This document shows positions 4,302 to 49,040 of a stretch of DNA of 64,000 bases, piece by piece. The stretch is from Micromonospora peucetia (GTDB lineage: Bacteria; Actinomycetota; Actinomycetes; Mycobacteriales; Micromonosporaceae): the NCBI RefSeq assembly GCF_900091625.1, contig NZ_FMIC01000002.1, forward strand, positions 3,162,001-3,226,000, given 5' to 3'. Position 1 is the first letter of the stretch. Each line of letters opens with the position of its first letter. A program made the position numbers and the translations under genes. Under the pieces are notes generated by a model. That model made no database searches. It worked only from the letters and a program-made list of their open reading frames with translations, and was not told the DNA's origin.

Positions 4302-4675
4302 GGGATCGCACCTACCTCGCTGTGGGAGCGCTATCAGGTTGCGCGAACACCCCGCCCCTGTCAACGCCCACCCCACCCACTCCCCGCCCCGCCCGCTTCC
4401 GGGCCCGCCCCGCTTCCGCTTCCGGTCCCCGCTTCCGGGCCCGCCCCGTTTCCGGGCCCGCCGATCATGAGGTTATCGCCCTGGATAGCGCTTTCCGGGG
4501 ACAAAAACCTCATGATCGACGAGGTGGGGCGCGTGGGGTGGGCGGGGCGGGCGGGGCGGGGGCAGCGGGGCGGGGACCGGGGGTGGGGTCGGGTGGGGAG
4601 GTGAGTGGGGGAGGTGGTGGGGGTCGGGTGGGCGGGGTGGGGGGTGGGTGTTTGGGGCGTGCCAGGATGGGGTTC
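4302..4675. other. 374-bp divergent intergenic region, C-rich then palindrome then G-rich
   Basis: This gap separates the kinase start from the patatin start. 4345-4461 is a C-rich run of CCCGCCCC and TTCCGGGCCCGCC units, 4462-4518 is a palindrome, and 4520-4660 is a G-rich run. The region therefore behaves as one large imperfect inverted structure with a strand-composition switch at the palindrome. Promoters for both genes must lie here. CAGGAT at 4663-4668, 7 nt before the ATG at 4676, could be a -10 for the patatin gene. Confidence 0.6.
4462..4518. repeat. Intergenic palindrome, GATCATGAGG-arm type (element 1)
   Basis: Perfect 13-bp arms at 4462-4474 and 4506-4518, continuing imperfectly inward to a central AGCGCT. 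Arms and centre match the element at 48976-49040. Unlike most of the others it lies between two divergent gene starts, so it is not obviously a terminator. Confidence 0.85.
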
Positions 4676-5509
4676 ATGGCGGGAGGCGTGGTGGCGTTCG
4701 TGCTCGGGGGCGGCGGAGTCCTCGGCGCGGTCGAGGTGGGCATGCTGCGGGCTCTGTTCCGGGCTGGCATCCGGCCCGACGTCGTGCTCGGCACCTCGAT
4801 CGGGGCGGTCAACGGCGCGCTGGTCGCCGCCGAGCCGTCCGAGGCGGTCACCGACCGGCTGGTCCGGCTCTGGGCCTCGCCCGAGGCGAGCGAGGTGTAC
4901 GGCGACTCGGTGGCCCGCCAGTTGCGCCGGTTCGCCGCCCGCACCCATTTGCACTCGCCCCGCCCGTTGCGCAAGCTGCTGGAGGCCGAGCTGGGCGCGG
5001 AGACCACCTTCGCCGACCTCCAGGTGCCGTTCCGCTGCTGCGCGGCCAACATCGAGCGGGCCGCCGAGCACTGGTTCGACACCGGGCCGCTGGTGCCGGC
5101 CGTGCTCGCCTCCGCCTCGGTGCCGGGGCTGCTGCCGCCGGCCCGGATCGACGACCAGCACTACATCGACGGCGGGATCGTGAACTCCATCCCGATCGGC
5201 GAGGCGGTCGCCGTGGGCGCCACCCGGATCTTCGTACTCCAGGTGGGCCGGATCGAGCGGGAGCTGAGCCCGCCCCGGCGGCCCTGGGAGATCGCCCAGG
5301 TCGCGTTCGAGATCGCCCGGCGGCACCGGTTCGCCCGGGAGATGGCGGCCCTGCCCGACGGAGTGGAGGTGCACGTGCTGCCCACCGGCGGGCTGGAGCC
5401 GCGCGACGACACGCCATGGGCGTACCGGGACATGGCTGCGGTGGGGCGACGGATCAGCCGCGCCTACACGGCCTCCCGACGCTACCTGGCGACCCAGTTG
5501 GAGCACTGA
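4676..5509 (+). CDS. Patatin-like phospholipase (RssA/NTE type)
   Basis: A 277-residue patatin. The oxyanion-hole glycine run GGGGVLGAVEVGML lies at about residues 10-23, the nucleophile elbow GTSIGA at about 41, and the catalytic Asp in DGGIV at about 163. It should hydrolyse acyl esters of membrane lipids through a Ser-Asp dyad. No signal peptide is present, so it acts inside the cell or at the inner leaflet. Its TGA overlaps the ATG of the next gene (ATGA), an acyltransferase, implying translational coupling and a joint role in removing and re-adding acyl chains. A start at 4667 is also in frame; 4676 is preferred on spacing. Confidence 0.88.
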   Translation: MAGGVVAFVLGGGGVLGAVEVGMLRALFRAGIRPDVVLGTSIGAVNGALVAAEPSEAVTDRLVRLWASPEASEVYGDSVARQLRRFAARTHLHSPRPLRKLLEAELGAETTFADLQVPFRCCAANIERAAEHWFDTGPLVPAVLASASVPGLLPPARIDDQHYIDGGIVNSIPIGEAVAVGATRIFVLQVGRIERELSPPRRPWEIAQVAFEIARRHRFAREMAALPDGVEVHVLPTGGLEPRDDTPWAYRDMAAVGRRISRAYTASRRYLATQLEH

Positions 5510-6525
5510 TGCCGCTGCCCCCACGGTGGGTGCGCCGGCTGTTCCTGGCCCCCGGCGTGGTGCTGTTGGCCTTCCTGGTGGTGACGACCCTGCCGGTCTG
5601 GGCGCTGTTCGCGGCGGCCGTCTCGCCGCTGGTCCCGGGCCGGCTGCGGCCGTTGCGCCTGCTCTGGATCGGCTGCGTCTACCTGGTCTGGGACGCGGTG
5701 GCGCTGCTCGCGCTCTTCCTGCTCTGGGTGGCCTCCGGCTTCGGCTGGCGGGTCCGGGCGCCCGCCTTCCAACGGGCGCACTACGTGCTCGCCGGCTGGT
5801 TCCTGAAGGTGCTCTTCTGGCAGGCCCGGTGGGCGCTGCACCTGAGCATCGACGTGGTGGGCACGGACCCCGACACGGCCCTGCCCGGCCGCCCCGAGCT
5901 GGTGCTCTGCCGACATGCCGGCCCGGGCGACTCGTTCATTCTGATCCACGCCCTGGTCAACTGGTTCAACCGGGAGCCGCGGATCGTGCTGAAGGACAGC
6001 CTCCAGTGGGATCCGGCGGTCGACGTGCTGCTCAACCGGCTGCCGAACCGCTTCCTCGCGCCTGGCCCGGACGGCCGGGGGTCGGTGACCGAGCAGATCG
6101 GGCACCTGGCCCGGGGCCTGGACGACGACGACGCTTTCGTGATCTTTCCGGAGGGCGGCAACTTCACACCCGGTCGCCGGCTGCGGGCCATCGACCGGCT
6201 GCGCGGCCTCGGCCTGGAACGGATGGCGCGGCGCGCGGAACGGATGCGGCATGTGCTCGCCCCGCAGCCGGGCGGGCTGCTCGCGGCGCTGGACGCCGCG
6301 CCGGACGCCGGGGTGATCTTCGTGGCGCACACCGGCCTGGACCGGATGCTCACCGTCGCCGACGTGTGGCGGGAACTGCCGATGGACAAGCGGATCGTCA
6401 TGCGCTTCTGGTCGGTGCCGCCGGAGGAGGTGCCGACCGGTCGGCAGGAGCGGATCGACTGGCTTTTTGACTGGTGGGCGCGGATCGACGAGTGGATCGC
6501 GGCCAATCGGGACGGTGCCGCGTAG
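5509..6525 (+). CDS. PlsC-like 1-acyl-glycerophosphate acyltransferase family protein
   Basis: A 338-residue membrane acyltransferase. Two or three hydrophobic helices occupy about residues 8-100. The HX4D catalytic motif appears as RHAGPGD at about 128, and the substrate motif FPEG as IFPEGGNF at about 213. Family members transfer acyl groups to lysophosphatidic acid or related lipids. The gene starts inside the stop of the patatin gene, so the two products are probably made together and may form a deacylation/reacylation pair. The stop TAG at 6523-6525 also forms the first half of the -10 hexamer of cutA. Substrate is unproven. Confidence 0.85.
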   Translation: MPLPPRWVRRLFLAPGVVLLAFLVVTTLPVWALFAAAVSPLVPGRLRPLRLLWIGCVYLVWDAVALLALFLLWVASGFGWRVRAPAFQRAHYVLAGWFLKVLFWQARWALHLSIDVVGTDPDTALPGRPELVLCRHAGPGDSFILIHALVNWFNREPRIVLKDSLQWDPAVDVLLNRLPNRFLAPGPDGRGSVTEQIGHLARGLDDDDAFVIFPEGGNFTPGRRLRAIDRLRGLGLERMARRAERMRHVLAPQPGGLLAALDAAPDAGVIFVAHTGLDRMLTVADVWRELPMDKRIVMRFWSVPPEEVPTGRQERIDWLFDWWARIDEWIAANRDGAA

Positions 6526-6534
6526 GGTGCGCTG
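6523..6534 (+). promoter_or_regulatory. Leaderless promoter -10 of cutA overlapping a stop codon
   Basis: TAGGGT at 6523-6528 is followed by exactly 6 nt and then GTG at 6535. This is the geometry of leaderless actinobacterial transcripts. The first three bases are the stop codon of the preceding gene. No Shine-Dalgarno sequence is visible. Confidence 0.55.
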
Positions 6535-6855
6535 GTGGACCAGATCTGCGTGGTGACGACGGTGGTGGACGCCCGCTCGGTCGCTGACGTGATGGCGGCC
6601 GCGGCCGTCGCCGGTCGGCTCGCGGCCTGCGCGCAGGTGGGCGGCCAGGTGGACAGCACCTACTGGTGGCGTTCCGGGGTGGAGACCAGCTCCGAATGGT
6701 CGGTGCAGTTCAAGACGGCACCGGACCGGGCCGCCGCGTTGGTGGAGCAGATCCGGGCCAGCCACCCGTACGAGGTGCCGGAGATCCTGGTGACCCGGGT
6801 GGACAGCGGCGACCCCGCCTACGCCACCTGGGTGCACGAGCAGACCCGGCCCTGA
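6535..6855 (+). CDS. cutA: CutA1 divalent-cation tolerance family protein
   Basis: A complete 106-residue CutA1 protein, the usual family length. It shows the conserved core L-A-A-C-x-Q (LAACAQVGG), the YWW segment (TYWWRSGVE) and the C-terminal HPYEVPEIL motif. CutA1 forms very stable trimers related to PII-like folds and has been linked to copper and other metal tolerance, though its molecular role remains unsettled. It follows the acyltransferase by 9 bp but probably has its own leaderless promoter. Confidence 0.92.
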   Translation: MDQICVVTTVVDARSVADVMAAAAVAGRLAACAQVGGQVDSTYWWRSGVETSSEWSVQFKTAPDRAAALVEQIRASHPYEVPEILVTRVDSGDPAYATWVHEQTRP

Positions 6856-6902
6856 GTACCCGCACTCTGGCCAGGTGATCTTCCAACCACCATGATGGCC
6901 GG

Positions 6903-9900
6903 GTGCAGAACAGCGGCTACCCCTGTCCCGCCTGCGGCGCGCCGGCCGACCTCGGCTCCGGCTGCTCCGGTTGCGGCCGGCCACCGTATCCGGCCGCCGC
7001 CGAGGTTGTCCGGCTCGACCGGGAGATCGTCGCGCTCGGCGGTGAGGTCGAGCGGGCCCGCGCGGCGTACCAGGGGCTCGTCGGCCGGCTGGGTGCGGCC
7101 CGGCAGCGTCGGGCGACACTGGCCGCCGCGGTCCGGACGGAGTTCCCCGTGACGCGCCCGGCGGTTCCCACGGCTCCGGCACCCGTGCGTCCCGTGCCGA
7201 CCGCGGCTCCGGCACCCGTGCGTCCCGTGCCGGCCGCGATGCCGGTGCCAGCCCGCCCGGTGCCGCCTGCGATGCCGGTGCCGGCCCGTCCCGCGCCGAC
7301 CGCGACCCCGATGCCGGCATGGCCGGGCCGGGGGCCGGTCGCTCCGGTCCCCGCGCCGGCCGGTGCGGGCGTCGGTGGGGCGGAGACCTCCACCCGGACC
7401 GTGCAGGGCCTGCTCTTCGTCCTCGGTGGGTTGCTGCTCGGCACCGCCGCGGTGGTCTTCACGGCGGTCGCCTGGGCGGCGGTCGGGGTCGCCGGCCGGG
7501 CCCTGATCCTGCTCGCGTTCACCGCGCTCGCCCTGGCCGCGCCGCTGGTGGCGGTCCGGCGAGGGCTGCGCGGCACCGCGGAGACCTTCGCCGCCGTCGG
7601 GCTGCTGCTGGTGCTCCTCGACGGGTACGCCGCCTGGTCGGTGGGCCTGGCCGGTGTGGCGGACTGGCCGGCCACCAGGTACGCCGCGCTGGTCGGGGGG
7701 GCCAGCGCGGCGGTCGCCGCCGGGTACGCCCGGCTCAGCGGGTTGACCGTGCCGTGGTTCGCGGCCCTGGTGACCGCGCAGCCGGTGCTGCCCCTGCTCG
7801 CCGTTGACGCCCGGCCGGACGCCGCCGGCTGGGCGATGGTCTTCCTGGGCGTGGCACTGTTCGACCTGGGGGTGCTGGTCGCGCTGCGCCGCCAGGTCTG
7901 CTCGGTGGCTGGCGGCGTTGCCCCGGTCGGCCCGGCTGGCGCCGTGGCCCCGGTCGGTCCGGCAGCCGGTGCCGTCATGGGTGCCGGCCCGGTGGCCGGG
8001 GCTGTGACCGGGGGCGGCCGGGCAGCCGGTGCGATGGCCCCGGCCGGTGGGGGGACGAGCATGGTGCCCGCGCCGCCCGGCGAGCGTCCGGCGGTGCTCG
8101 CCGGGCGCGTCCTCGCCTGGGTCGGACACGCCGGCGCGCTGCTCGTGGCCGCGTGCTGCGCGGTGGTGCCGCTGACCGTCGGCCAGGCCGCCGGCATCCC
8201 GGTGCTGGCCGGGGTGCCGATGCTGCTGGTGGCGCTGACGCTGCTCGGCACTGCGCTGCTCACCGGCGGGGCGGTGTTCCGCGCGGTGGCCGCCGCGCTG
8301 GTGGTGCCGGCGCTGGCCGGAGCGGTGATCCGCCCGATCGCCGAGCTGGGGCTGTCGCCGCTGCTCACGGCGCTGGTCCTGGTGGCGCTGGCCGGCGCGG
8401 TGCGGCTGCTGCCCGCCGGATGGCGGACCGGCCCTCGGGCCGGCGCGCTGGCGGTGGTCGGTGGGACGGGCCAATTCGCCGTACTGCTGGCCGTCGCGCT
8501 TGCGGGAGCCACCGCGGGCCGGTCGCTGCCGCCGTGGCGGGGTGCCGCCGCCGGGCCCGACCTCGGCCAGGGATGGCAGCTTCCGGTGGTGATCGCGCTG
8601 ACCGTGGCCGCCCTGGGACTCCTGCTGCCGAGGGCCGCCCGGCCGGCGCTGGCCGCGATCGGCGTGGCGGCCGTCGTGCTGGCGGTGCCCGCCAGCTGGC
8701 CGTCGCCCTGGCCTGCGGTGATGGCCCTGGACCTGGTGGCGGCCGTGGGCCTGCTGGCCGTCGCGGTGGGGCGGCCGGGCACCCGGTCCTGGACGGCCCT
8801 GACCGCGGCGGTGGCCGGGAGCGTCCTGCTCGGGCACGGCCTGCTCGTGGGGCTCGCCGCACCCGCCGGGGCGGGCGCGGCGCTCGCGGTGGTGCTGGTC
8901 GCCGGGGTCGCCGTGGCGGTGGTCGGCCGGCGCGGCACGGCCGTGCAGCGCGGGGTGGCCGGGGTGGCGCTGGCCGTCGTACCGCTCGCGGTGCCGGCCG
9001 GCGCGGTCGTCGCCCTCATCGCCGGTGCGCCGGCCTGGTGGCAGGCGCGGGCGGCCCTCGCCGCCGTCGCGCTACTGCCCGTCGGGCTGCTCGCGGTCCG
9101 CCGGCACTGGCCCGACCTGCGGGTGTACGCCTCCGTCGGGGTGGCCGTGGCGGTCGCGGCGGTCGGATTGGCGCCGGTGGTCGTACCGGCCGACGAACCG
9201 GTGACGCTCTACGCCGCCGTGACGGTCCTGCTGGCGACGCTGGGCGGTGCGGCGCGCTCCGACATCGCGCTGCGGGTGACCGGCGTCGGGCTGCTCGTGG
9301 TCTCGGTCGCCAGCGCCGTGCCGGTGGCGCTGACGGCGCTCGTCGCCCCGTACGGCGGAGTGTCGCCCTGGTCCGGTGCGCCCACGGTCGGGGCCGACCC
9401 GGGGGCGCTCCCGGTGGGCCTGGCGCTGGCCGTGCTGGCGGTGGCCGGGGTGCTGGCCGGCCTGCCGGACCGGGGCGTCGTGCGGACCGCCCCGGAGCAG
9501 CTCGGAGATGTCCCGCGTGATCCCGGAACCGGCGTCCCGGCGGTGGGTGCCGGCTGGTGGCGGCCCGCGCTGGTCGCGTTGCCGTTCGCCGCGACCGCGC
9601 TGCCCGTGCTGCTGGTGGCCGCCGGTGTGCCGTGGCCGGTGCTGCCGGTCACCACGCTGTTCGGCGGGGTGGCCGTGGTGCTGGTCGCCGCGCTGACCGC
9701 CCCGCGTCCGCTGCTTGCCCCGGTCGGGGTGCCGGTGGGGTTGGTGCTGGCGACGTCCGGGCTGCTCGGGCTGCTGGCCACCCGGGCGGGCACGATCGTC
9801 GGCCTCGGCGTGCTGGTGGTCGCGGCGACGGTGGTCGGCGTGGCCGCCCGCCGGGCCGACGCCCGCCTCGGTGGTGCCCTGGTCGCGGTGGCCGCCGCAA

Positions 9901-21979: not shown

Positions 21980-22048
21980 CGATCTTGCACTTTGCGCCCT
22001 CGGATTGGGTGCTTCGCCCCTTAGGCCGGGGCACAAAGTGCAAGATCG
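21980..22048. repeat. Intergenic palindrome, GATCTTGCACTTTG-arm type (element 2)
   Basis: 20-bp arms (21980-21999 and 22029-22048) with one mismatch, around a 29-bp centre. The left flank is C-rich (CCCACCC units) and the right flank is a G-rich run. It lies 73 bp downstream of the stop of the minus-strand WGR gene. The arm aligns with elements at 30732, 40873 and 45951. Confidence 0.85.
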
Positions 22049-22120
22049 CGGAGGGCAGGGGAGGGCAGGGCAGGGGAGGGCAGGGCAGGGGTGAGGGGGA
22101 GGGCAGGGGGAGGGGAGGGG
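22049..22120. other. G-rich repetitive tract (possible G-quadruplex)
   Basis: The plus strand is a run of GGGAGGGCAGGG-type units reaching the stop codon of the WGR gene. Four or more G-runs of three or more occur within short distances, so quadruplex formation on the plus strand is plausible. The WGR mRNA would carry the C-rich complement in its 3' region. Confidence 0.5.
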
Positions 22121-23539
22121 TTAGCGGAGGCGGCGGATGTCGCCGTGGGCTCGGTAGAAGCCGCCCCGGCCGGACTCGCGGACCTGGGTGACCAGGTAGC
22201 GCGCGCCCGGCTCGCGGATGCCCTTGGGGAACTGCACCGACCAGTCCCGGTGGTAGCCGGGGGAGAGCACGTGCACCCGCAGCCGGCCGCCGTTCTCGAC
22301 GCACTGCACGAGCACGCCGCCGTCGACGTCGCTGGTCACCTCGACCGTCGTCCACGCTGCCGGCTCCGGCATCCGGGACGGGGCCTTGACGTCGACCACC
22401 TCCGGCACGCTGCCGGCCTCGGCCGCCCGGATCGCCGGCTCGCTGGCGTCGATGCAGGCCAGGTGGCCGCTGGTGGTGACGACATAGAGCCGCTCGTCGT
22501 GGTACTGCATCGAGTAGGCCGAGCCGCAGCCGGTGCCGAGCTTCCACAGCCGGTTGCCGGCCGCATCGAAGCAGTAGATCGAGGACTGGCTGTCGCCGGC
22601 GAAGACGAACCGGCCGCCCTCGGCCGTGGCGCAGGAGAAGACCGGGGCGTCGCACCGGTAGCTGCGTTCGGTGCGGCCGTCCTTCGCGAGGCGTACGACC
22701 TCGCGGGTGCCGGTGCCGGCGAACACCGCGTCGGGCTCCTGCCAGCCGAACAGCACCGAGCCGGTGCGGGTGTGCCACAGCTCGCGGCCCGTCCGCCAGT
22801 CGTAGCCGGTCACACCCTGCGAGTGGCCGTGGTAGATCGCGTCACCGTCGCAGCGCACCATCCACGCCGACCGGCCCCGACCCTGCCGGCGCCAGAGGAA
22901 CTCGTCCTCGTGGTCGACGGCGACGATGCCGCCGCCCGCGTCGGAGACGCCCAGCACGCCGTCGTGGATGTCCAGCCAGTAGATGTCGATCTCCGGCGCG
23001 ATCTCGTACGCCGCCCGGGGCACCTTGCCGGACAGGTCGTAGACGTTGCCGTCGTCGCAGCCCGCGTAGACCCAGGCGTCGTCGGCGACGATGCACTTCA
23101 CCCCGTCGGGCAGGCGGACCTGGTTGAGCACCCGGGCGTCGTGGCCGAGCGTGGTGATGACCCCGCGCTCGTTGCCGACCATGCAGCTCTGCCCGTCGAC
23201 GAAGATGCCGAAGGCCGGGGCGCCGGAGTCGTAGCGCCAGAGCACCGGGGCGGTGCGGGCGGTGGATCGGGTGCTGACGATCTGCCGCCGGGAGACGGCG
23301 CGCTTCTGTCGCACCCCGGGGACGGCCGGGGCGTACCCCTTGCGGACCTTTTCGCCGATCTTCTTCGCCGCCGCCGCGCGGGCCTTGGTGTTGTCAGCGA
23401 AGGCCGTGGTCTTGACCTGGCCCTGGTCGCCGATCCGCCCGTAGCGGACGGTCAGCACGGCGTCGTCGACGACGGTCTCGTAGAACTTGTGCGCACCGTC
23501 CACTTCGGACAGTTCGAGATAGGTCGTCTCCTGCGACAT
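22121..23539 (-). CDS. WGR-domain protein with beta-propeller
   Basis: A 472-residue cytosolic protein. Residues 5-80 form a WGR domain (TYLELSEVDGAHKFYETVV...LTVRYGRIGDQGQ...), a module that in PARPs contacts DNA ends and the catalytic domain. Residues about 95-455 are a PQQ/WD-like beta-propeller with repeated blade motifs (DGVKCIVADDAWVYAGCDDGNVYDLSG and similar). No catalytic domain is present. A DNA- or nucleotide-sensing scaffold is a reasonable guess, but no function is known to me. ATG 23539 follows GGAGG. The flavin reductase gene lies upstream on the same strand, 157 bp away. Confidence 0.82.
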   Translation of the reverse strand: MSQETTYLELSEVDGAHKFYETVVDDAVLTVRYGRIGDQGQVKTTAFADNTKARAAAAKKIGEKVRKGYAPAVPGVRQKRAVSRRQIVSTRSTARTAPVLWRYDSGAPAFGIFVDGQSCMVGNERGVITTLGHDARVLNQVRLPDGVKCIVADDAWVYAGCDDGNVYDLSGKVPRAAYEIAPEIDIYWLDIHDGVLGVSDAGGGIVAVDHEDEFLWRRQGRGRSAWMVRCDGDAIYHGHSQGVTGYDWRTGRELWHTRTGSVLFGWQEPDAVFAGTGTREVVRLAKDGRTERSYRCDAPVFSCATAEGGRFVFAGDSQSSIYCFDAAGNRLWKLGTGCGSAYSMQYHDERLYVVTTSGHLACIDASEPAIRAAEAGSVPEVVDVKAPSRMPEPAAWTTVEVTSDVDGGVLVQCVENGGRLRVHVLSPGYHRDWSVQFPKGIREPGARYLVTQVRESGRGGFYRAHGDIRRLR

Positions 23540-29276: not shown

Positions 29277-30680
29277 GTGAAAAGATCCAGGTCTCTGGTG
29301 TTCTCACTGGTCACAGCCGTGGTTGCGGCGCTCGGTGCGGTGTGGGTGGCGATGCCCGCGTTCGCTGCCGGAGTGACCGCCAGCTTCGTCAAGACGGCCG
29401 ACTGGGGCTCGGGCTGGGAGGGGAAGTACACGATCACGAACGGGGGCGGGGCCACGGTCGACGGCTGGAATGTCGTCTTCGACCTGCCTGCCGGCACCAC
29501 CGTCGGCAGCTACTGGGACGCCCTGCTGACCTCGTCGGGCCAGCGGCACACCTTCACCAACCGGTCCTGGAACGGCCGCATCGTTCCGGGCGCCTCGGTC
29601 TCGTTCGGCTTCCTCGGCAACGGGCCGGGCGCGCCCACCAACTGCCAGTTCAACGGCGTGCCGTGCGGCGGCGGTCCCACCCCCACCACCGCGCCACCCA
29701 CCACCGCGCCGCCGACGACCGCGCCGCCGACCACCCCGCCCCCGACCACCCCGCCCCCGACGACCCCGCCACCGAACACCGGCCTGCCGAAGCACATCCT
29801 CACCGGGTACTGGCACAACTTCGACAACCCGGCGGTCGAGCTGCGGCTACGTGACGTGCCGGCCGAGTACGACCTCGTGGCGGTCGCCTTCGCCGAGGCC
29901 ACCGCCACCCCCGGCGCCGTCACCTTCGCCGTCGACCCCGGCCTGTCCACCGCGCTCGGCGGCTACACCGACGCCGACTTCTCCGCCGACGTGCGCGCCC
30001 TACAGTCCCGGGGCAAGAAGGTGATCATCTCGGTGGGTGGCGAGACGGGCCGGGTGGCGGTCAACGACGCCGCCTCCGCCGCCGCGTTCAGCAACAGCGT
30101 CCACGCGCTGATCCAGCGGTACGGCTTCGACGGGGTCGACATCGACCTGGAGAACGGGCTGAACCCGACCTACATGGCGCAGGCGCTGCGCTCGCTGCGG
30201 GCCAGGGTGGGCGCCGGACTGATCATCGCCATGGCCCCGCAGACCATCGACATGCAGTCCCCGGGCGGCAGCTACTTCAAGCTGGCGCTCGACATCAAGG
30301 ACATCCTCACCGTCGTGAACACCCAGTTCTACAACTCGGGCGCCATGCTCGGCTGCGACCAGAACGCCGCGTACGGCCAGGGGACGGTGAACTTCATCGT
30401 CGCGCTGGCCTGCATCCAACTGGAGGCCGGGCTGCGCCCGGACCAGGTCGGTCTCGGCCTGCCGGCCGGTCCCGGCGCGGCCGGTGGCGGCGTCGTCGCG
30501 CCCAGCGTGGTCAACGCCGCGCTGGACTGCCTGTCCCGGGGCACCAACTGCGGCAGCTTCCGCCCGCCGCGCACCTACCCGGGCATCCGTGGCGCGATGA
30601 CCTGGTCGGTCAACTGGGACGTGACCAACGGCAACAACTTCGCCCGCACGATCGCCCCCCACCTGAAAACCCTCCCCTGA
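29277..30680 (+). CDS. Secreted GH18 chitinase with N-terminal CBM2
   Basis: A 467-residue exported enzyme. It has a Sec signal peptide (about residues 1-32, ending AMPAFAA) and a family-2 carbohydrate-binding module (about 33-130, with WGSGWEGKYTITN and WNGRIVPG). A Pro/Thr linker of TTAPP and TTPPP repeats follows (about 132-170), then a GH18 catalytic barrel (about 172-465). The catalytic motif DGVDIDLE contains the proton-donor Glu. It cleaves chitin, with the CBM holding insoluble substrate. GTG 29277 is set by GGAGGA and the basic start of the signal peptide. The upstream patch 29200-29235 is unusually AT-rich (GTTAACACTCCTAATAATGG) and probably contains the promoter. Confidence 0.94.
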   Translation: MKRSRSLVFSLVTAVVAALGAVWVAMPAFAAGVTASFVKTADWGSGWEGKYTITNGGGATVDGWNVVFDLPAGTTVGSYWDALLTSSGQRHTFTNRSWNGRIVPGASVSFGFLGNGPGAPTNCQFNGVPCGGGPTPTTAPPTTAPPTTAPPTTPPPTTPPPTTPPPNTGLPKHILTGYWHNFDNPAVELRLRDVPAEYDLVAVAFAEATATPGAVTFAVDPGLSTALGGYTDADFSADVRALQSRGKKVIISVGGETGRVAVNDAASAAAFSNSVHALIQRYGFDGVDIDLENGLNPTYMAQALRSLRARVGAGLIIAMAPQTIDMQSPGGSYFKLALDIKDILTVVNTQFYNSGAMLGCDQNAAYGQGTVNFIVALACIQLEAGLRPDQVGLGLPAGPGAAGGGVVAPSVVNAALDCLSRGTNCGSFRPPRTYPGIRGAMTWSVNWDVTNGNNFARTIAPHLKTLP

Positions 30681-30731: not shown

Positions 30732-30817
30732 CCGCCGCGCGATCTTGCAGTTGCGGCCCTGGCAAAAGCCGCATGTGCGGTCATACCCAGGACCACAACT
30801 GCAAGATCGCGCGGCGG
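30732..30817. repeat. Intergenic palindrome, GATCTTGCAGTTG-arm type (element 3)
   Basis: Perfect 22-bp inner match (from 30732 and from 30817 inward) extending to about 28 bp with two mismatches. The centre has its own palindrome CCGCATGTGCGG (30769-30780). It lies between convergent chitinase and DedA genes, 47 bp from the DedA stop. The arm matches elements 2, 4 and 5. Confidence 0.88.
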
Positions 30818-30864: not shown

Positions 30865-31533
30865 TCAGGGGGTGGCGTCGGCGTGGTCGCGGGAGTGGGT
30901 GCGGCGGCGGCGGGTTTTCTTGATCGCCCACCAGGCGATCGTGACGACGAAGATGGCGATGATGCCGTAGTCGAACCACTTGCTGTACTGCTCGATCTGC
31001 TGCCAGCGGGAGCCGAGGGCGTATCCCAGGCCGACGAAGAGCGCGTTCCAGATGCCGCTGCCCAACGTGGTGAACGCGATGAACTCCGGCAGCGGCATCC
31101 GGTTGGCCCCGGCGGGGACGGAGATCAGGCTGCGTACCACCGGCATCATCCGGCCGAACAGCACCGCCCACCGGCCGTGTCGCTCGAACCAGCGGTCGGC
31201 CTTCTCCAGATCGTCGCGGTCGACCAGGGGCAGCCGGTCGAGCCAGCGCTTGAGCCGGTCCTCACCGGCAGCCGCGCCCAGCCAGTACAGGACGAGTGCC
31301 CCGGCCAGGGAACCGACGGTGGCGGCGACCCACACCAGGACGACGTTGAACCGTCCCTCGCTGGCCAAATAGCCGGCCATCGCCAGGACGATCTCGCTCG
31401 GGATCGGCGGGATGATGCTCTCCAGGGCGACCAGCAGGGCCACCCCGATGGCGCCGGCGGCGTCGATGACTCCCGCCACCCAGCCGGTCAGGCCGCCGAG
31501 TCGGGTCGGGTCGACGTTCTCGGCGAGTGCCAT
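30865..31533 (-). CDS. DedA-family membrane protein
   Basis: A 222-residue DedA (SNARE-associated/VTT) protein. It carries the ESIIPPIPSEIVL motif near residue 40 and the GRMMPVVRSLISVPAGANRM motif near 130, with conserved Glu and Arg, plus four to five hydrophobic segments. DedA proteins act as lipid scramblases or flippases, for example recycling undecaprenyl phosphate or phosphatidylethanolamine. The C-terminus is strongly basic (KKTRRRRTHSRDH). The start at 31533 follows AAGGA. Substrate cannot be told. Confidence 0.92.
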   Translation of the reverse strand: MALAENVDPTRLGGLTGWVAGVIDAAGAIGVALLVALESIIPPIPSEIVLAMAGYLASEGRFNVVLVWVAATVGSLAGALVLYWLGAAAGEDRLKRWLDRLPLVDRDDLEKADRWFERHGRWAVLFGRMMPVVRSLISVPAGANRMPLPEFIAFTTLGSGIWNALFVGLGYALGSRWQQIEQYSKWFDYGIIAIFVVTIAWWAIKKTRRRRTHSRDHADATP

Positions 31534-40052: not shown

Positions 40053-40811
40053 ATGTCGGAGGGGCAGCGGGTCGCCATCGTCACGGGGGCGGCGCGGGGG
40101 ATCGGGGCGGCCACCGCCCGCCGGCTCGCGGCCGACGGCCTCGCGGTCGCCGTGGTCGACATCGAGGAGTCGGCGACCAAGGAGACCGTGGACGCCATCG
40201 CCGCAGCCGGCGGCCGGGCGCTCGGCGTCGGCGCCGACGTGTCCGACCGGACCCAGGTCGAGGCGGCCGTGCAGCGGGTCGCCGCCGAGTTGGGTGCCCC
40301 GGCGGTCCTGGTCAACAACGCCGGCGTGCTCCGCGACAATCTGCTGTTCAAGATGACCGACGCCGACTGGGACACGGTCATGGGCGTGCACCTGCGCGGC
40401 GCTTTCCTGTTCAGCCAGGCCGCCCAGAAGCACATGGTCGAGCAGAAGTGGGGCCGGATCGTCAACCTGTCCAGCACCTCGGCGCTGGGCAACCGGGGCC
40501 AGGCGAACTACGCGGCGGCGAAGGCCGGCCTCCAGGGCTTCACCAAGACCCTCGCCATCGAGCTGGGCCCGTACGGGGTGACCGTCAACGCGGTCGCGCC
40601 CGGCTTCATCGTCACCGACATGACCGCCGCCACCGCCGCCCGGATGAAGGTCGACTTCGAGGCGCTCCAGAAGCACGCCGAGTCCGAGATCGCGGTACGC
40701 CGGGTCGGCCGGCCCGAGGACATCGCGCACACCATCTCGTTCCTGGCCAGCGAGGGCGCCTCCTTCGTCTCCGGCCAGGTCATCTACGTCGCCGGCGGCC
40801 CCAAGTCCTAA
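40053..40811 (+). CDS. Short-chain dehydrogenase, FabG (3-oxoacyl-ACP reductase)-like
   Basis: A 252-residue classical SDR. The cofactor loop TGAARGIG lies at residues 11-18, NNAG at about 90, the catalytic Ser in NLSSTSALG (about 139) and YAAAK (Tyr about 153, Lys about 157). The length and PGFIVTDMT motif match FabG-type reductases, which reduce 3-oxoacyl thioesters with NADPH. It is isolated from fatty-acid synthase genes, so it may be a secondary FabG4-like enzyme. GGGAGG precedes the ATG. The palindrome TTCGATCGAA at 40021-40030, 22 bp before the ATG, may be an operator. Confidence 0.88.
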   Translation: MSEGQRVAIVTGAARGIGAATARRLAADGLAVAVVDIEESATKETVDAIAAAGGRALGVGADVSDRTQVEAAVQRVAAELGAPAVLVNNAGVLRDNLLFKMTDADWDTVMGVHLRGAFLFSQAAQKHMVEQKWGRIVNLSSTSALGNRGQANYAAAKAGLQGFTKTLAIELGPYGVTVNAVAPGFIVTDMTAATAARMKVDFEALQKHAESEIAVRRVGRPEDIAHTISFLASEGASFVSGQVIYVAGGPKS

Positions 40812-40872
40812 CCCCACCCCCGCCCACCCTGCCCCGCCCACCCTGTCCCCGCTCCCCGCCCCGCGCTCTCCT

Positions 40873-40947
40873 CGTCGATCTTGCAGTTGTGGCCCTACCT
40901 TTGCCGGCTTTGTCGCCTTTGCGGGGGCCGAAACTGCAAGATCGACG
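40873..40947. repeat. Intergenic palindrome, GATCTTGCAGTTG-arm type (element 4)
   Basis: 23-bp arms (40873-40895 and 40925-40947) with two mismatches. A C-rich flank lies to the left (CCCGCCCACCC) and a G-rich flank to the right. It sits between the convergent SDR gene and a membrane-protein gene, 42 bp from the latter's stop. Confidence 0.87.
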
Positions 40948-40989
40948 GGGTGGAGGGGTGCGGGGGCGGGGGTGGCGGGGGGTTGGGGG

Positions 40990-41412
40990 TCAGCGTGGGG
41001 TGGGGCGGCGGGTGTGCCAGAGCCAGAGCAGGCCGAGCACCGGCAGGACCAGCGGGATGTAGCCGTACCCGCTGCCGAACCGCGACCAGACCGTCTCGTC
41101 CGGGAAGAGTTCCGGGTCGGCGAGGCTGAGGATCCCGACGCCGAGCACCCCGGCCAGCTCCACGGCGCAGCACGCCAGGGCGACCCGCCGGCCGGCGGAA
41201 CCGGCGCGGGCCAGCCCCACCGCCGCGACGATGTAGATGGCCGCGGCGAGGGCCGAGAGCAGGTACGCCACGGGTGCCTCGTCGAACTTCGTGGCGATCT
41301 GCAGGCCGGCGCGGCTCGTCGCGGCGATTGCGAAGAGCAGGTAGACCGCGATCAGCAGCCGTCCCGGGCCGGCGTTGGTCCGCTTCTGTTCCGGGGCGCG
41401 TACGTCAGCCAC
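40990..41412 (-). CDS. Small four-TM membrane protein
   Basis: A 140-residue membrane protein of unknown function with four hydrophobic helices (about 18-38, 47-67, 78-98, 115-133). A conserved-looking loop reads FDEAPVAYLLSALAAAIYIVAAVG. The soluble parts are short. It overlaps the upstream gene by 8 bp (41405-41412) and both products have the same TM count, so they likely work as a pair. No transport motif is seen. Confidence 0.72.
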   Translation of the reverse strand: MADVRAPEQKRTNAGPGRLLIAVYLLFAIAATSRAGLQIATKFDEAPVAYLLSALAAAIYIVAAVGLARAGSAGRRVALACCAVELAGVLGVGILSLADPELFPDETVWSRFGSGYGYIPLVLPVLGLLWLWHTRRPTPR

Positions 41413-44349: not shown

Positions 44350-44540
44350 CAGGCCAGCGGGTTCAGGGCCGCACCCAGCTCGGCGGGGGAGTCGAACTCC
44401 TCCGCCGGCAGGGCCCGGAGCGCCTGGAGCAGCTCCGTGCCGACCCCGTTCTCCTGGCCCCAGCGGACCAGATCCTCCCGGGAGACCGGGTAGTCGAGCC
44501 CGGCCAGATACTCCTGTAACTGCACGCCGGTGACGGTCAT
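44349..44540 (-). CDS. DUF2795 small protein
   Basis: A 63-residue protein matching the DUF2795 pattern: VQLQEYLAGLDYPVSREDLVRWGQENG...ELLQALRALPAEEFDSPAELGAAL. Proteins of this family are small, helical and widespread in actinobacteria, with no established role; DNA binding has been guessed. Length is typical. It sits between erm and the erythromycin-esterase-like gene, on the strand opposite to both. Confidence 0.85.
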   Translation of the reverse strand: MTVTGVQLQEYLAGLDYPVSREDLVRWGQENGVGTELLQALRALPAEEFDSPAELGAALNPLA

Positions 44541-44668
44541 GCCGGCGGGCTACCCGCTCAGCCCGCCGGCACACCGCCCGCCCGGAGGTTCGCCCGAGCG
44601 GGCGGCAGGCTCGCCCACCGATCGACGGTCGGCGGTTTGTCCGGCGGCGCGCCGGGTAGCCGCCCGCC

Positions 44669-45925
44669 ATGCTGGTTCAGCGGCTCGGCGCGCCGAGCGA
44701 CTTCGACCCGTTGCTGGAGCGCGTACGAGACGCCCGGATCGTGATGATCGGCGAGGCGACGCACGGCAACTACGACTACTACCGGCTGCGCGAACAGCTC
44801 ACCCGCCGGCTGATCGCCGAGTGCGGGTTCTCCTTCGTCGCCGTGGAGGGGGACTGGCCCGACTGTGACCGGGTGCACCGCTCGGTGATCGCCGCTCCGG
44901 GCGGGGCCGTCGACCCGCGTACCGCGCTGGAACGCTTCGAGCGCTGGCCGACCTGGATGTGGGCGAACGCCGAGGTGTCCCGGTTCTGTGCCTGGCTGAG
45001 GGCGTGGAACGTCGAGCGGCCCGAGGACGCCCGGGCCGGCTTCCACGGCCTGGACGTCTACAGCCTCTGGGAGTCCATGCAGGCGATCTTCGACTATCTC
45101 GGCGAGGAGGACCCGACGTCGCTGGAGGCGGCGCAGGACGCGTACCGCTGCTTCGAGCCGTACGGCAAGCGGGTCGAGGAGTACGGCATGGCCAGCCGGT
45201 TCGTCTCCGCCCGCTGCGAGGAGGAGGTCGTGCGGCTGCTGGCACGTACCCGCGAACAGGCCGCCGCCGACGGCCCGGACAGCTTCTCGGCCTGGCAGAA
45301 CGCGGAGGTGGTGGCCGGCGCGGAGCGCTACTACCGGGCGATGGTGCACGGCGGGCCGGAGTCGTGGAACATCCGGGACACGCACATGACGGACACCCTG
45401 GACCGGCTGCTGGAACGCTACGGTCCGGGCGCGCGGGGGATCGTCTGGGCGCACAACACGCATATCGGCGACGCCCGGGCCACCGAGATGGCCGCCGACG
45501 GGATGGTCAACATCGGCCAACTGGCCCGCGAGCGGCACGGCGCGGACGAGGTGGTCCTGGTCGGCTTCGGCGGCTACCGGGGCACGGTCACCGCCGCGCC
45601 GCGCTGGGGCTCGCCGGCCGAGGCGATGGTGGTGCCACCGGCCCGCCCCGGCTCGGTCGAGCACCGGCTGCACGAGCTGATGCCCGAGCGGGCCGTGCTG
45701 GTCTTCGGCGGCGACGACCAGCCCGACTGGGTCACCGGGACCGCCGACCACCGGGCGATCGGGGTGGTCTACGACCCGTCCTTCGAGTCGTGGGGCAACT
45801 ACGTGCCTACCCGGCTGGGGGAGCGCTACGACGCCTTCGTGTGGTGCGACGAAACCACCGCCCTGCACCCGCTGCCGGCCCTGACCACCCCAGGCGAAAT
45901 GGAGACGTACCCCGCCGGCGTCTGA
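44669..45925 (+). CDS. Erythromycin-esterase-family protein
   Basis: A 418-residue member of the EreA/succinoglycan-biosynthesis hydrolase fold. The signature GEATHGNYDYYRLREQLTRRLI (about residues 29-50) contains the catalytic His, and the acidic residues of the family follow (FVAVEGDWPDCDRV, GLDVYSLWESM, WAHNTHIGD). True Ere enzymes hydrolyse the macrolide lactone, but most actinobacterial homologues act on other esters or are untested. Its closeness to erm (443 bp) makes a macrolide role more plausible than usual. The start at 44669 fits the family N-terminus; no Shine-Dalgarno is evident. Confidence 0.86.
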   Translation: MLVQRLGAPSDFDPLLERVRDARIVMIGEATHGNYDYYRLREQLTRRLIAECGFSFVAVEGDWPDCDRVHRSVIAAPGGAVDPRTALERFERWPTWMWANAEVSRFCAWLRAWNVERPEDARAGFHGLDVYSLWESMQAIFDYLGEEDPTSLEAAQDAYRCFEPYGKRVEEYGMASRFVSARCEEEVVRLLARTREQAAADGPDSFSAWQNAEVVAGAERYYRAMVHGGPESWNIRDTHMTDTLDRLLERYGPGARGIVWAHNTHIGDARATEMAADGMVNIGQLARERHGADEVVLVGFGGYRGTVTAAPRWGSPAEAMVVPPARPGSVEHRLHELMPERAVLVFGGDDQPDWVTGTADHRAIGVVYDPSFESWGNYVPTRLGERYDAFVWCDETTALHPLPALTTPGEMETYPAGV

Positions 45926-45950
45926 CCGCGCTGCGGCCCCCGGCCTCGGT

Positions 45951-46020
45951 GATCATGCAGTTGTGGTGCCCGTTCCAGCCGGTTTCACCGGTGGTGTGGG
46001 GCACCACAACTGCATTGATC
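45951..46020. repeat. Intergenic palindrome, GATCATGCAGTTGTGG-arm type (element 5)
   Basis: About 21-bp arms from 45951 and from 46020 inward, differing by one inserted A. The centre contains CCGGT-TTC-ACCGG (45979-45991). It sits between convergent esterase and MMPL genes, 7 bp from the MMPL stop. Confidence 0.87.
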
Positions 46021-46027
46021 GAGTGGG

Positions 46028-48277
46028 TCAGGCCCGGGTTCCGACCTTCTCGTCGAGGTGGGCGCGCAGGCCCTCGCCCTCGATGTCGACGTTGGGCAGC
46101 GCCCTGTCCAGCCAGCGCGGGAGCCACCAGGCCCGCTTGCCGAGCAGTGACATCACGGCCGGCACGATCGTCATCCGGACCACGAAGGCGTCGATGGCGA
46201 CGCCGACGGCGAGCGCGAAGCCCATCGACTTGATGACCGGGTCGTCGAGGAAGACGAAGCCGCCGAACACCGCGATCATGATCAGCGCGGCGGCGGTCAC
46301 CACCCGGGCACCGTGCCCCATCCCGTTGATGGTGGCCTGCTGCGCGGTGTCACCGTGTACGAAGTCCTCCCGCATCCGGGAGACCAGGAAGACCTCGTAG
46401 TCCATTGCCAGGCCGAACAGGATGCCGATCAGCAGGATCGGCAGGAAGCTGACCAGCGGACTGGGCGTGTCCAGGCCGACCAGGTCGGCGAGGTGGCCCT
46501 GCTGGAACACCGCAACGGTGATGCCGAAGGTCGCGGCGACGGTGAGCAGGAAGCCCAGCGCGGCCTTCACCGGCACCAGCAGCGAGCGGAAGACCAGCAT
46601 CAGCAGCAGCACCGAGAGCCCGACCACCAGCAGCAGGTAGACCGGCATGGCGTCGGTGAGTTTCTCGGAGACGTCGATGCCGACCGCGGTCGCCCCGGTC
46701 AGCAGCACGTCGACGTCGCGGAACTCGCCCACCGCTCCCCGGACGTCGTTGACCAGGGTCTCGGTGGCCTCGTCGGTCGGGCCGGTCTTCGGCACCACCC
46801 CGAGCAGCGCGGTACGGCCGTCCGGGCTGAGCTGCGGCGGAGCCACCGCGAGCACGTTGTCGGTGCGCTGGATCAGCGCGGTGACCTGCGGGACGGCGGC
46901 CGAGGTCGCCTGCGGGGTGTCCCCGGCGACGACCACCGCGAGGCGGCCGGTGAAGCCCGGCCCGAAGCCCTCGGTGATCAGGTCGCTCGACTCCCGGGCC
47001 GGCGAGCCGACCGCCGCCGCGCTCGCGTCGGGCAGCGCCAGCCGCATGTCGGGCGCGGGCAGCGCGAGCAGCCCCAGGCCGATCAGCCCGACCAGGATGG
47101 CCGGCACCCGGAACCGGGTGACGGCACGCGCCCAGCGGAACCCGAAGCCCGACCGGTCCTCGGCCGGCGAAGTGACCGCGCCGTTGGCGCCGTCCGCCTT
47201 GTCCCCGGCAGCTTTGTCCCCGGCCGCCTTGTTCCCGGTCGGTCCGTTCTCGGTCGGGATCGTCGAGCGCAGCTTGCGGGGGAGCACCCGGCGGCCGGCG
47301 AAGCCGAGCAGCGCCGGCTGGAGCGTGATCGCGACCAGCACCGCGATGGTGACCGTGCCTGCGGCGGCCAGACCCATCACGGTCAGGAACGGGATGTTCA
47401 CCACGGCCAGCCCGGCCAGCGCGATGACCACGGTGGCGCCGGCGAAGACCACGGCCGACCCGGCGGTGCCGACGGCGCGGCCCACCGCCTCGTCCGGTGG
47501 CAACCCCTCGATCAGGTTCTGCCGGTAGCGGGAGGTGATGAAGAGCGAGTAGTCGATGCCGACCGCGAGGCCGAGCATCAGGGCGAGGATCGGCGCGGTG
47601 CTGCTCAGGTCGACCACGCTGCTGATCGCGAAGAGGCCGGCCATGCCGACGCCCACGCCGATCAGCGCGTTGAGCATGGTCATCCCAGCCGCCACCAGCG
47701 AGCCGAACGTGATCACCAGGACGATCGCGGCGACCGCGACACCGATCGCCTCGGTCGAGCCGACCTCCGGCGCGCTGTTGAGCACCTCGCCGCCGGGTGC
47801 GATCTCCCAGCCCTGGGTCTCGGCCCGCTCGCCGACCTTCTCGTACGCGTCGCGCTGGGCGTCGGTCACCTCGTCGGCGCCGGTGGCGAACTGGACCTGG
47901 ACCAGCGCGTACCGGCCGTCCGGGGAGACCGCCCCCACCTGGAACGGGTCGACGGCGCCGACGACGCCGGGCAGTGTCGCGGCCTCCTGGGCGAGTTCCT
48001 TCACCACGGCCTGCCCCTGCGGACTGGCGAGCGCGCCGTCGGCGGGTGCCTTGACCGCGATCGTGCCGGTCGCGCCGCTGGCCGCCGGGAACTGCTCGGC
48101 GAGCAGGTCCAGGGCACGCTGCGACTCCGTGCCGGGCATGGTGAAGTTGTCGGCTATCGGGCCGCGCAGGGTCGCGGCGCCGAGGCCGAGACCCACGAGT
48201 ACGACGAGCCAGATCGCCGCGACGAGTCGCCGCCGGCGCATCGAGCCCCGGCCGAGCCGGTATAGCAGGGTGGCCAT
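46028..48277 (-). CDS. MMPL/RND-family membrane transporter
   Basis: A 749-residue transporter with twelve predicted TM helices and two large external loops (about residues 50-165 and 400-520). It has typical MMPL motifs (GLAVGIDYSLFITSRYRQN and GLAMDYEVFLVSRMRED, the Asp-Tyr proton-relay pairs). A polar loop of repeated NKAAGDKAAGDKAD (about residues 333-350) is unusual. It likely exports lipids or lipophilic drugs. ATG 48277 follows AAGGA. A TetR gene lies 38 bp upstream on the same strand; the pair forms an operon under the double palindrome at 48889-48923. Confidence 0.93.
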   Translation of the reverse strand: MATLLYRLGRGSMRRRRLVAAIWLVVLVGLGLGAATLRGPIADNFTMPGTESQRALDLLAEQFPAASGATGTIAVKAPADGALASPQGQAVVKELAQEAATLPGVVGAVDPFQVGAVSPDGRYALVQVQFATGADEVTDAQRDAYEKVGERAETQGWEIAPGGEVLNSAPEVGSTEAIGVAVAAIVLVITFGSLVAAGMTMLNALIGVGVGMAGLFAISSVVDLSSTAPILALMLGLAVGIDYSLFITSRYRQNLIEGLPPDEAVGRAVGTAGSAVVFAGATVVIALAGLAVVNIPFLTVMGLAAAGTVTIAVLVAITLQPALLGFAGRRVLPRKLRSTIPTENGPTGNKAAGDKAAGDKADGANGAVTSPAEDRSGFGFRWARAVTRFRVPAILVGLIGLGLLALPAPDMRLALPDASAAAVGSPARESSDLITEGFGPGFTGRLAVVVAGDTPQATSAAVPQVTALIQRTDNVLAVAPPQLSPDGRTALLGVVPKTGPTDEATETLVNDVRGAVGEFRDVDVLLTGATAVGIDVSEKLTDAMPVYLLLVVGLSVLLLMLVFRSLLVPVKAALGFLLTVAATFGITVAVFQQGHLADLVGLDTPSPLVSFLPILLIGILFGLAMDYEVFLVSRMREDFVHGDTAQQATINGMGHGARVVTAAALIMIAVFGGFVFLDDPVIKSMGFALAVGVAIDAFVVRMTIVPAVMSLLGKRAWWLPRWLDRALPNVDIEGEGLRAHLDEKVGTRA

Positions 48278-48315
48278 GAGTTCCTTGTCCTCGGTCGTGG
48301 ATGGTTGGGTACGGG

Positions 48316-48861
48316 TCAGTCGACGGGCTCCAGCGCCCGCCCGGTCAGTGCCAGCAGCGCAACGCGCAGTTCCTCGTCGGGTACGTCGATGAACTGCCCG
48401 CAGGTCTCGGAGATGCCGGCGAGCAGCACCAGCGCCGTGATCCGGGCGGACGGGCGTTCCGGGTGCCCGGCGAGCGCGTCGACCAGCCGCTCGGAGATCC
48501 GCTGGATGTGCGCGAAGGCGGGCTGCTGGAGCAGTTCCGGGAACTCGCCCCGGAGCAGGGCGATCTCGCGCCGGAACCGGACCGCGAGGTCGACGAAGCC
48601 CTCGGCGGCGACCCGCTGGGCGGCTGCGCCGCAGTGCGCGGAGATCCGCTCGTCGAGCGCCTGGAGAACCGCGATCGCCGGGGCCATCAGCTCGGTGAGA
48701 ATGGCCTCCTTGTTGGCGAAGTGGTAGAGCACCGTCGCCTTGGAACAGCCCACCTCGCGGGCGATGTCCTGCAACGAGGTGCCCCGGTAGCCGGTCGCCG
48801 CGAAGCGTCGAGCCGCCGCCGCAAGGATCTCGTCGTGCGTCTCCGGAACCATCCGCGCCAT
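48316..48861 (-). CDS. TetR-family repressor
   Basis: A 181-residue TetR regulator. The N-terminal HTH reads EILAAAARRFAATGYRGTSLQDIAREVGCSKATVLYHFANKEAIL (about residues 10-54), and a ligand-binding helical domain follows. It is first in the operon with the MMPL transporter, so it most likely represses both until a substrate binds. Two identical perfect palindromes lie immediately upstream and are the obvious operator. The start at 48861 follows GGGAGGTGGG. Confidence 0.93.
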   Translation of the reverse strand: MARMVPETHDEILAAAARRFAATGYRGTSLQDIAREVGCSKATVLYHFANKEAILTELMAPAIAVLQALDERISAHCGAAAQRVAAEGFVDLAVRFRREIALLRGEFPELLQQPAFAHIQRISERLVDALAGHPERPSARITALVLLAGISETCGQFIDVPDEELRVALLALTGRALEPVD

Positions 48862-48888
48862 GCCGGCCCACCTCCCCGACCAGCATGC

Positions 48889-48923
48889 CTGACCGATCGG
48901 TCAGCCCCTGACCGATCGGTCAG
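48889..48923 (-). promoter_or_regulatory. Double operator for the TetR-MMPL operon
   Basis: CTGACCGATCGGTCAG occurs twice, at 48889-48904 and 48908-48923, both perfect 16-bp palindromes 19 bp apart (just under two helical turns). They begin 28 bp upstream of the TetR start codon and must overlap its promoter. Confidence 0.88.
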
Positions 48924-48975
48924 ATCGATAGCGTGGCGTTCCCCACAAGCGCCTGAGGTTTAACCCTCCCCGGCC

Positions 48976-49040
48976 GCGTTGATCATGAGGCTATCGCCTG
49001 CGGAAAGCGCTCTCCAGGCCGATAACCTCATGATCAACGC
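48976..49040. repeat. Intergenic palindrome, GATCATGAGG-arm type (element 6)
   Basis: 25-bp arms (48976-49000 and 49016-49040) with one or two mismatches and a central AGCGCT (49006-49011). It is closely related to element 1 at 4462. It lies 16 bp after the stop of the minus-strand YccF gene. Confidence 0.88.

Follow-up and report, generated by a model that had tools for sequence, protein, structure and literature searches.

The stretch of Micromonospora peucetia DNA analysed here (contig NZ_FMIC01000002.1, positions 3,162,001 to 3,226,000; 64,000 nucleotides, hereafter the window) contains six intergenic palindromes located between 4 and 50 kbp from its left end. An initial annotation gave them a single arm consensus and proposed that they are either a small mobile or repetitive extragenic palindrome (REP)-like family or a dispersed protein-binding site. 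All six lie where they had been placed, with RNA folds of −31.9 to −75.5 kcal/mol and a strong predicted fold on both strands (Table 1). The shared arm likeness is far above chance and stands; the single consensus does not, as the palindromes belong to three subfamilies, A (three copies), B (two) and D (one).

Table 1. Palindromes and flanking tracts of the window
Feature	Position	Description
Palindrome, subfamily B	4462–4518	55-bp core 4463–4517, GATCATGAGGTT arms; lies between divergent genes and not, as is the rule, at a gene end
Palindrome, subfamily A	21980–22048	67-bp core 21981–22047; 73 nt past the stop codon of the minus-strand gene 22121–23539
G-rich tract	22048–22120	From palindrome to stop codon; C-rich and G-poor in the sense of the minus-strand gene
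Palindrome, subfamily A	30732–30817	68-bp core 30741–30808 plus 9-bp outer stem; between convergent genes 29373–30680 (+) and 30865–31533 (−)
C-rich, G-poor tract	40812–40876	From stop codon of 40053–40811 (+) to palindrome
Palindrome, subfamily A	40873–40947	67-bp core 40877–40943; between convergent genes 40053–40811 (+) and 40990–41412 (−)
G-rich tract	40944–40989	From palindrome to stop codon of minus-strand gene 40990–41412
Palindrome, subfamily D	45951–46020	GATCATGCAGTTGTGGTGCCC arms; between convergent genes 44669–45925 (+) and 46028–48277 (−, as called)
Palindrome, subfamily B	48976–49040	55-bp core 48981–49035; 20 nt past the stop codon of minus-strand gene 49056–49436

Arms, lengths and positions of the palindromes

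Counts for the M. peucetia genome are from a sample of 1.264 Mb (the 64-kb window plus 1.2 Mb) of 7.37 Mb, except where they are given as genome-wide. For the arm sequences GATCTTGCACTT and GATCATGAGGTT an order-4 Markov model predicts 0.034 and 0.05 occurrences, and the sample has 55 and 14, respectively, so the arm is not, as the initial annotation allowed it might be, simply as common as chance predicts. Genome-wide, the combined pattern GATCWTGMRSTTN{20,50}AASYKCAWGATC has 104 exact copies and its reversed control has none. Pairing of arms (up to two mismatches per arm, three arm models) gives A spans of 67 bp (31 pairs), 68 bp (six) and 96 bp (one, a nested partial duplicate at 164911), B spans of 55 bp in 13 of 14 pairs, and spans of 48 bp in five of six pairs of a further subfamily, C; the subfamily lengths are 67/68 bp for A, 55 bp for B and 69/70 bp for D. 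No exact A arm is unpaired, and three A arms that stand alone, each with one mismatch, all lie within called genes.

The 31 A copies of 67 bp have nearly invariant 12-bp arms, in which column 10 is either C or G. These are followed by columns 13–15/53–55, which are mostly non-complementary, a conserved GCCC/GGGC (columns 16–19/49–52), and 29 variable central columns, in which A/T is weakly favoured around columns 25, 34 and 43. The first two flanking pairs outside the GATC are complementary in 49 and 36 of 55 cases, compared with 34.0 and 21.7 predicted from composition. A covariance model built from the 31 copies, a kind of check suggested by the initial annotation, recovers the 37 A copies of the sample at E ≤8e-9, and up to an E of 0.1 the only others are the window's B copy at 4463 and the D copy (E 1e-4 to 1e-2). 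The same model reveals no graded series of decayed A copies.

Gene positions are from a crude home-made gene caller (1087 genes). The sample contains 56 copies, comprising 37 A, 13 B, 5 C and 1 D. Of the A copies 36 are intergenic, situated in 21 convergent, 14 tandem and one divergent gap, an excess in convergent gaps (Fisher p 5e-8) over the 97 convergent, 324 tandem and 172 divergent gaps among the background of 593 that are at least 90 bp long. Twelve of the 13 B copies (8 tandem, 2 convergent, 2 divergent) and four of the five C copies (2 convergent, 1 tandem, 1 divergent) are also intergenic. Of the 112 convergent gaps that are 70 bp or longer, 25 contain a listed element. A stop codon is faced by 35 of the 36 intergenic A copies, the nearest at a median of 63 nt (35–108 nt in 33 of 35), compared with a mean median distance of 123 nt for randomly placed 67-mers. 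The A elements as read from these sequences thus have constant arms at a fixed spacing, a varying centre, and a location just past stop codons. One convergent gene pair (contig C2, 2986155–2986315) contains two A elements 27 bp apart, with a single D element at the site in the relatives G617 and G625.

Several other palindromes are present. One at 56301–56359 has 27-bp perfect arms containing GTGGAACACCA, an arm that is paired at three places in the sample, and another strong palindrome at 49527–49581 begins with CGGTGGAACGTCAC and is related, by eye, at its outer end only. A separate fixed-length family of ~61-bp palindromes, GGTGATCAGGACGCCATGGAC...GTCCATGGCGTCCTGATCACC, has centres that are similar by eye and 11 exact arm matches (L014, L021, L025, L027, L036 and L053 at C2 373640, 1016813, 1091116, 1139863, 1318908 and 3045065). 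Three 74-bp hairpins (C2 1227281, 1257523 and 1293922) differ in their arms and have a common inner CCGGGCGGTCAGGCTTGATCCCT or its complement. An Rfam scan of the window finds only a tRNA at gathering score, and a known RNA family is therefore not indicated; a lax scan adds 11 sub-threshold hits, among them a mir-4436 hit over 40869–40951 (E 0.12) that is taken as chance.

C-rich tracts and orthologous sites

The sequences between genes and palindromes are strongly skewed. In the 40 nt that lead up to an A element on either side, read in the direction of the palindrome, the C content is 0.59–0.60 and the G content 0.22–0.23, compared with 0.373 and 0.371 in 351 windows past other stop codons, and the skew is absent from 152 other intergenic hairpins of the genome (C ~0.37, G ~0.34). 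Neither a general C-richness after stop codons nor a general hairpin context therefore accounts for it. Tracts from stop codon to palindrome (up to 220 nt, n=55) have a median length of 72 nt with C 0.65 and G 0.18; a C/G ratio of at least 2 is found in 48 of them but in only 20 of 396 post-stop controls, and predicted folding is −0.18 kcal/mol per nt, compared with −0.47 in 120 of those controls. On the far side of the hairpin a four-run G motif lies within 100 nt in 62 of 74 cases (controls, 16 of 396). The skew is also present in 12 elements of four relatives (flanks C 0.61, G 0.23) and, among the matches listed, in the first 20 nt of loci from Micromonospora (C 0.62, G 0.19) and Dactylosporangium (C 0.52, G 0.22), with a weaker form in Virgisporangium (C 0.50, G 0.28), fading by 100–150 nt in all three.

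Tract and palindrome go together, as is evident from the 40-nt post-stop stretches of G617 and G625 at sites that have an A element in M. peucetia: those with an element have C 0.65 and G 0.16 (11 stretches), and those lacking one have C 0.44 and G 0.39 (20 stretches), with the decayed G617 copy at 30741 counted as absent though its tracts are C-rich, and with three stretches at unclassable sites left out. On both strands, then, a C-rich, G-poor tract leads into the hairpin and co-occurs with the palindrome at orthologous sites, as judged from sequence comparison. The tracts have the character of a Rho utilization (rut) site, being C-rich, G-poor, unstructured and about 70–80 nt long, and a Rho gene is present in the genome. 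The accessible text of PMC12207403 defines a rut site by these same features, a length of ~70–80 nt, richness in C, paucity of G and lack of structure.

The gap at 45951 was read in 28 genomes (M. peucetia, seven others and 20 more), and all 28 contain a hairpin, with scores of 12–24 (median 19) where shuffled sequences reach 10 at the 99% level, 12 at the 99.9% level and 14 at most. Seventeen are of the D/E type (69 nt in 16, 70 nt in M. peucetia), the other 11 have a different hairpin, with both short GGAGGTGTGG...CCACACCTCC and AAGGGCCC forms among them, and GATC is present on both arms in 15 of the 28. Among the 16 D/E genomes other than M. peucetia, which is excluded because it is one base longer, pairing holds for 97.5% of arm cells, and six of the 20 arm pairs are altered on both sides, a number matched in none of 500 shuffles and at most 1 in slid controls. 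At this one site the arms have evidently changed in pairs. The initial annotation contrasted the elements with terminators as conserving an arm and not just a fold; this contrast is not supported, as A copies lie just past stop codons and the 45951 hairpin is kept in every genome while its GATC arms are kept in 15. Retention of a hairpin without the arm, named there as counting against a family, does occur at the one site 45951, and the family is real all the same. In the orthologs of 45926–46027 in G065, G545, G588 and G605 (with a variant in G566) the short GGAGGTGTGG...CCACACCTCC hairpin resembles the inner D/E arm GGAGTTGTGGTGCC, a likeness hinting that D/E elements and ordinary terminators may share ancestry.

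G617 and G625 are 92–93% identical to M. peucetia over ~359 kb of long matches, and at several A sites the distance between alignable stretches is 225, 198, 201 and 194 nt in M. peucetia and 25, 13, 21 and 16 nt, respectively, in G617, a shortening of approximately the whole module. Three A sites are occupied by another subfamily in relatives: 2986155 (D in G625, and D with one mismatched arm pair in G617), 3044867 (B in both), and 21981 of the window (a 55-bp B element in G625 and G564). The window element 30732–30817 has the D form on both arms in G625 and one decayed arm in G617, and the site of 40873–40947 has a short GC hairpin instead in G617, G625 and G564; orthologs of this last site in G603 and G138 contain further repeated hairpins with GGCCACTC-TTTC-like arms. 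There is no such element at the site of 4462–4518 in G617, G625, G564 and G627, and no such hairpin at that of 48976–49040 in the four readable relatives G617, G625, G627 and G003. A five-genome unrooted tree joins M. peucetia to G627, whose branch is the longest, and separates the two from G625, G617 and G564, such that both loss in the latter group and gain in M. peucetia are possible. Matches of G627 listed at 3063153 and 3106098 are one G627 element aligning to both, and were not used.

Spread of the family and copying of cores

Within the genus, a broader multi-arm pattern is present in 115 of 121 genomes with up to 209 copies, the reversed control giving none in any genome; the six without an exact match (G555, G579, G596, G606, G644 and G645) are 5.1–5.9 Mb. 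The strict A pattern is found in 21 of 150 genomes and seven of 44 genera of the family (1 to 139 copies where present), with 11–84 copies in nine of 16 genomes of its own genus and none in the other seven, and across the phylum in one of 396 genomes, that of M. peucetia itself. Exact A copies number 84, 26 and 2 in three of eight genomes and are absent from the other five; among relatives G627 has 26 and G603 has 2, and G617, G625 and G564 have none. Over an 11.8-kb tree alignment, three relatives that lack an exact A copy are 94–95% identical to M. peucetia. Among the matches listed (at least 120 stretches, 124 copies), A copies are from Micromonospora, one Verrucosispora, Dactylosporangium, Virgisporangium and unclassified Micromonosporaceae, with lengths of 67/68 bp in 80 of 82 Micromonospora copies (including Verrucosispora), 69/70 bp in 21 of 22 from Dactylosporangium, and 68–71 bp in all 16 from Virgisporangium.

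Cores are related between sites that are not orthologous. The 13 A copies of D. roseum have centres that are on average 78% identical, in both orientations, with all 78 pairs above the shuffled 99% level, and flanks that are no more alike than shuffled (47% against 44%). In M. peucetia the arms are 96% and the centres 47% identical (column-shuffle mean 42%), with 23 centre pairs of at least 65% identity in an ungapped test where 1.5 are expected and 8 is the maximum in 300 column shuffles; an earlier test of the M. peucetia centres by gapped scores was unclear, with a top score of 23 and shuffled maxima averaging 19.3 and reaching 25 in 100 runs. With fixed lengths, conserved arms, more than 100 copies and cores common to non-orthologous sites, the dispersed REP-like family proposed initially is borne out.

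The two flanks of a copy also tend to be reverse complements of one another, to a degree that composition does not explain, in Dactylosporangium (0 of 2000 permuted pairings, n=23) and, on local scores, in named Micromonospora loci among the matches listed (0 of 2000, n=87). In M. peucetia this complementarity is found only next to the core and is not significant beyond the first 5 nt (188 and 236 of 2000, n=46). Over the same range four relatives give no significant signal either (1002 and 702 of 2000, n=12), and Virgisporangium shows none (n=16). Four A loci (L122, L112, L137 and L164) have locus-specific perfect outer inverted repeats of ~15–27 nt, as if the flank had been copied inverted.

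As to REP-associated tyrosine transposases (RAYTs), the M. peucetia genome contains a single Y1_Tnp domain, beside an apparent TnpB frame (by eye) and with no A or B arms nearby. Only six of 29 genomes have such domains, and the four with most elements (G601, G594, G123 and G571, with 209, 192, 163 and 154 copies) have none, which rules out a RAYT-driven REP; linkage of copies to a RAYT-like transposase, for which the initial annotation advised looking, is therefore not a requirement in M. peucetia or the 29-genome set. No partner transposon sharing the ends was found in the part read, where there is also no lone exact A arm (1.264 of 7.37 Mb).

Relation to known systems and a putative two-way terminator

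Miniature inverted-repeat transposable elements (MITEs) are short and non-coding with terminal inverted repeats and many copies, and the palindromes resemble them in all of these respects; they differ in that no partner transposon was found in the part read and no target duplication is proven. Many DNA uptake signals occur singly, whereas every exact A arm read here is paired and no U-tract follows, and the lack of any lone exact A arm in the sample excludes uptake sequences. A REP unit is 20–40 bp long and its tag is unpaired. The Micromonospora elements, in contrast, are 48–70 bp with no unpaired tag, have no RAYT and are flanked by C-rich/G-rich tracts; a CGTC precedes the GATC in some copies only, and is variable and often matched by GACG on the other side. 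REP families with GTAG or CGTC tags at one end are, in the accessible text of Di Nocera 2013 (PMC3733652), dispersed, palindromic and intergenic, mostly between convergent or same-direction genes, and the Micromonospora family is similar in its dispersal, its convergent or unidirectional gaps and in probably acting as RNA. The main text of that paper, as accessible, does not contain the word Actinobacteria, and that of the RepRanger paper (PMC12306157) mentions neither Micromonospora nor Streptomyces. In Neisseria and Pasteurellaceae the arms of uptake-sequence terminators share one sequence genome-wide, a likeness to the present elements, and uptake signals generally number 1000 or more (TransTermHP, PMC1852404, accessible part). 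Rho-dependent rut terminators, as described in the accessible part of PMC12207403, are alike in their unstructured C-rich, G-poor tract of ~70–80 nt, and are unlike the Micromonospora module in its repeated conserved palindrome, two-way symmetry and G-run tract beyond, Rho action being putative here. The closest known kinds are REPs and uptake-sequence terminators, and the palindromes lack defining features of both. In a literature collection with few subscription papers, the titles, abstract openings and passages on terminators and on palindromes of Micromonosporaceae, with Micromonospora, Salinispora and Actinoplanes, gave no account of this family, and the papers listed for its arm sequences are unrelated by title.

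We consider it probable on balance, from the sequence evidence, that the palindromes are a REP-like superfamily of the Micromonosporaceae that spreads by core copying and has been retained at gene ends because it terminates transcription in both directions. A two-way terminator would be expected to show this position, symmetry, tract and preserved pairing, and a mobile repeat the observed dispersal, copied cores and patchy subfamilies; we take both to be true. A polymerase leaving either gene would first transcribe ~70 nt of C-rich, unstructured RNA as a putative loading site for Rho, the long hairpin and then the G-rich tract that follow would both pause the polymerase, and Rho would end transcription, with the hairpin shielding the 3′ end from exonucleases. 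Such a module, being symmetric, would serve both convergent genes. New copies would be made by non-RAYT machinery that recognises the constant arms, the centre being unnecessary and drifting. A stronger version, which we put forward tentatively and regard as somewhat less likely than not to hold, is a self-dispersing bidirectional terminator: a mobile palindrome that brings or builds its own C-rich/G-rich loading tracts and so rewires gene ends, with subfamilies replacing each other at the same sites and non-RAYT machinery reading only the two arms.

Several observations weigh against this interpretation. A U-tract (at least 5 T in 12 nt) is present at none of 74 hairpin ends, and the elements are thus not canonical intrinsic terminators; GC-rich actinomycete hairpins are mostly without strong U-tracts. 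The skew is found also on sides facing a 5′ end, which termination of the upstream gene alone would not demand, and four of the 56 copies (one A, two B, one C, including the 4463 copy of the window) are in divergent gaps and three (one each of A, B and C) are within genes as crudely called. At 45951, the 20 added relatives were chosen since a BLAST match spans the site, which favours conservation, the two weakest hairpins (score 12) only equal the shuffled 99.9% level, and the paired arm changes could also stem from template-switch correction of palindromes. The comparison of orthologous regions recommended by the initial annotation shows that A presence is indeed patchy, but three A sites hold other subfamilies and neither a clean empty site nor a target duplication was found at the orthologous sites compared; the GATC ends could be a target duplication, yet whole intergenic stretches differ between relatives that are 92% identical. 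Moreover, the sequences recognised by M. tuberculosis Rho are purine-rich according to a 2025 review (PMC12288462, accessible part), a point that makes the rut reading less secure.

The same data can be read without a function. A purely selfish REP- or MITE-like element, inserting after genes because it is harmless there and with arms conserved since only intact-arm copies can be copied, would account for the patchy, nearly all-or-none presence between close relatives, the copied cores within unrelated flanks, and the presence of A in one genome and D or B in another at three orthologous sites. We think this unlikely, though a serious competitor, as it does not account for a hairpin in all 28 genomes at 45951 with paired arm changes, and simple insertion does not predict the coupling to a C-rich tract. 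Less probable still is that the palindromes rewrite their surroundings, hairpins on the replicating strand leading to template switches that copy the flank inverted and so create the C-rich/G-rich symmetry and correct the arms, with no function needed. This would predict the reverse-complementary flanks seen in Dactylosporangium and Micromonospora loci, the perfect outer repeat of 27 nt specific to locus L122 and the paired changes at 45951. It would not predict that the complementarity lacks significance beyond 5 nt in M. peucetia and in four relatives and is absent from Virgisporangium, and template switching leaves unexplained why the upstream tract is C-rich and other gene ends are not. 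A dispersed binding site for a nucleoid or segregation factor reading two arms at a fixed spacing, the second of the initial proposals, is suggested by the near-invariant arms, fixed spacing and free centre, and appears very improbable given that relatives have differing arms at orthologous sites, with changes that come in pairs, that three relatives 94–95% identical have no exact A copy, and that the elements are placed at gene ends.

The preferred reading, of a mobile palindrome kept as a two-way terminator, bears on how GC-rich actinomycetes end transcription. At least 100 gene ends of one genome seem to bear one standard symmetric part, which could serve as a terminator in these antibiotic producers, and terminators may accordingly be able to disperse and displace one another in the manner of mobile elements, by means of a putative copying enzyme.

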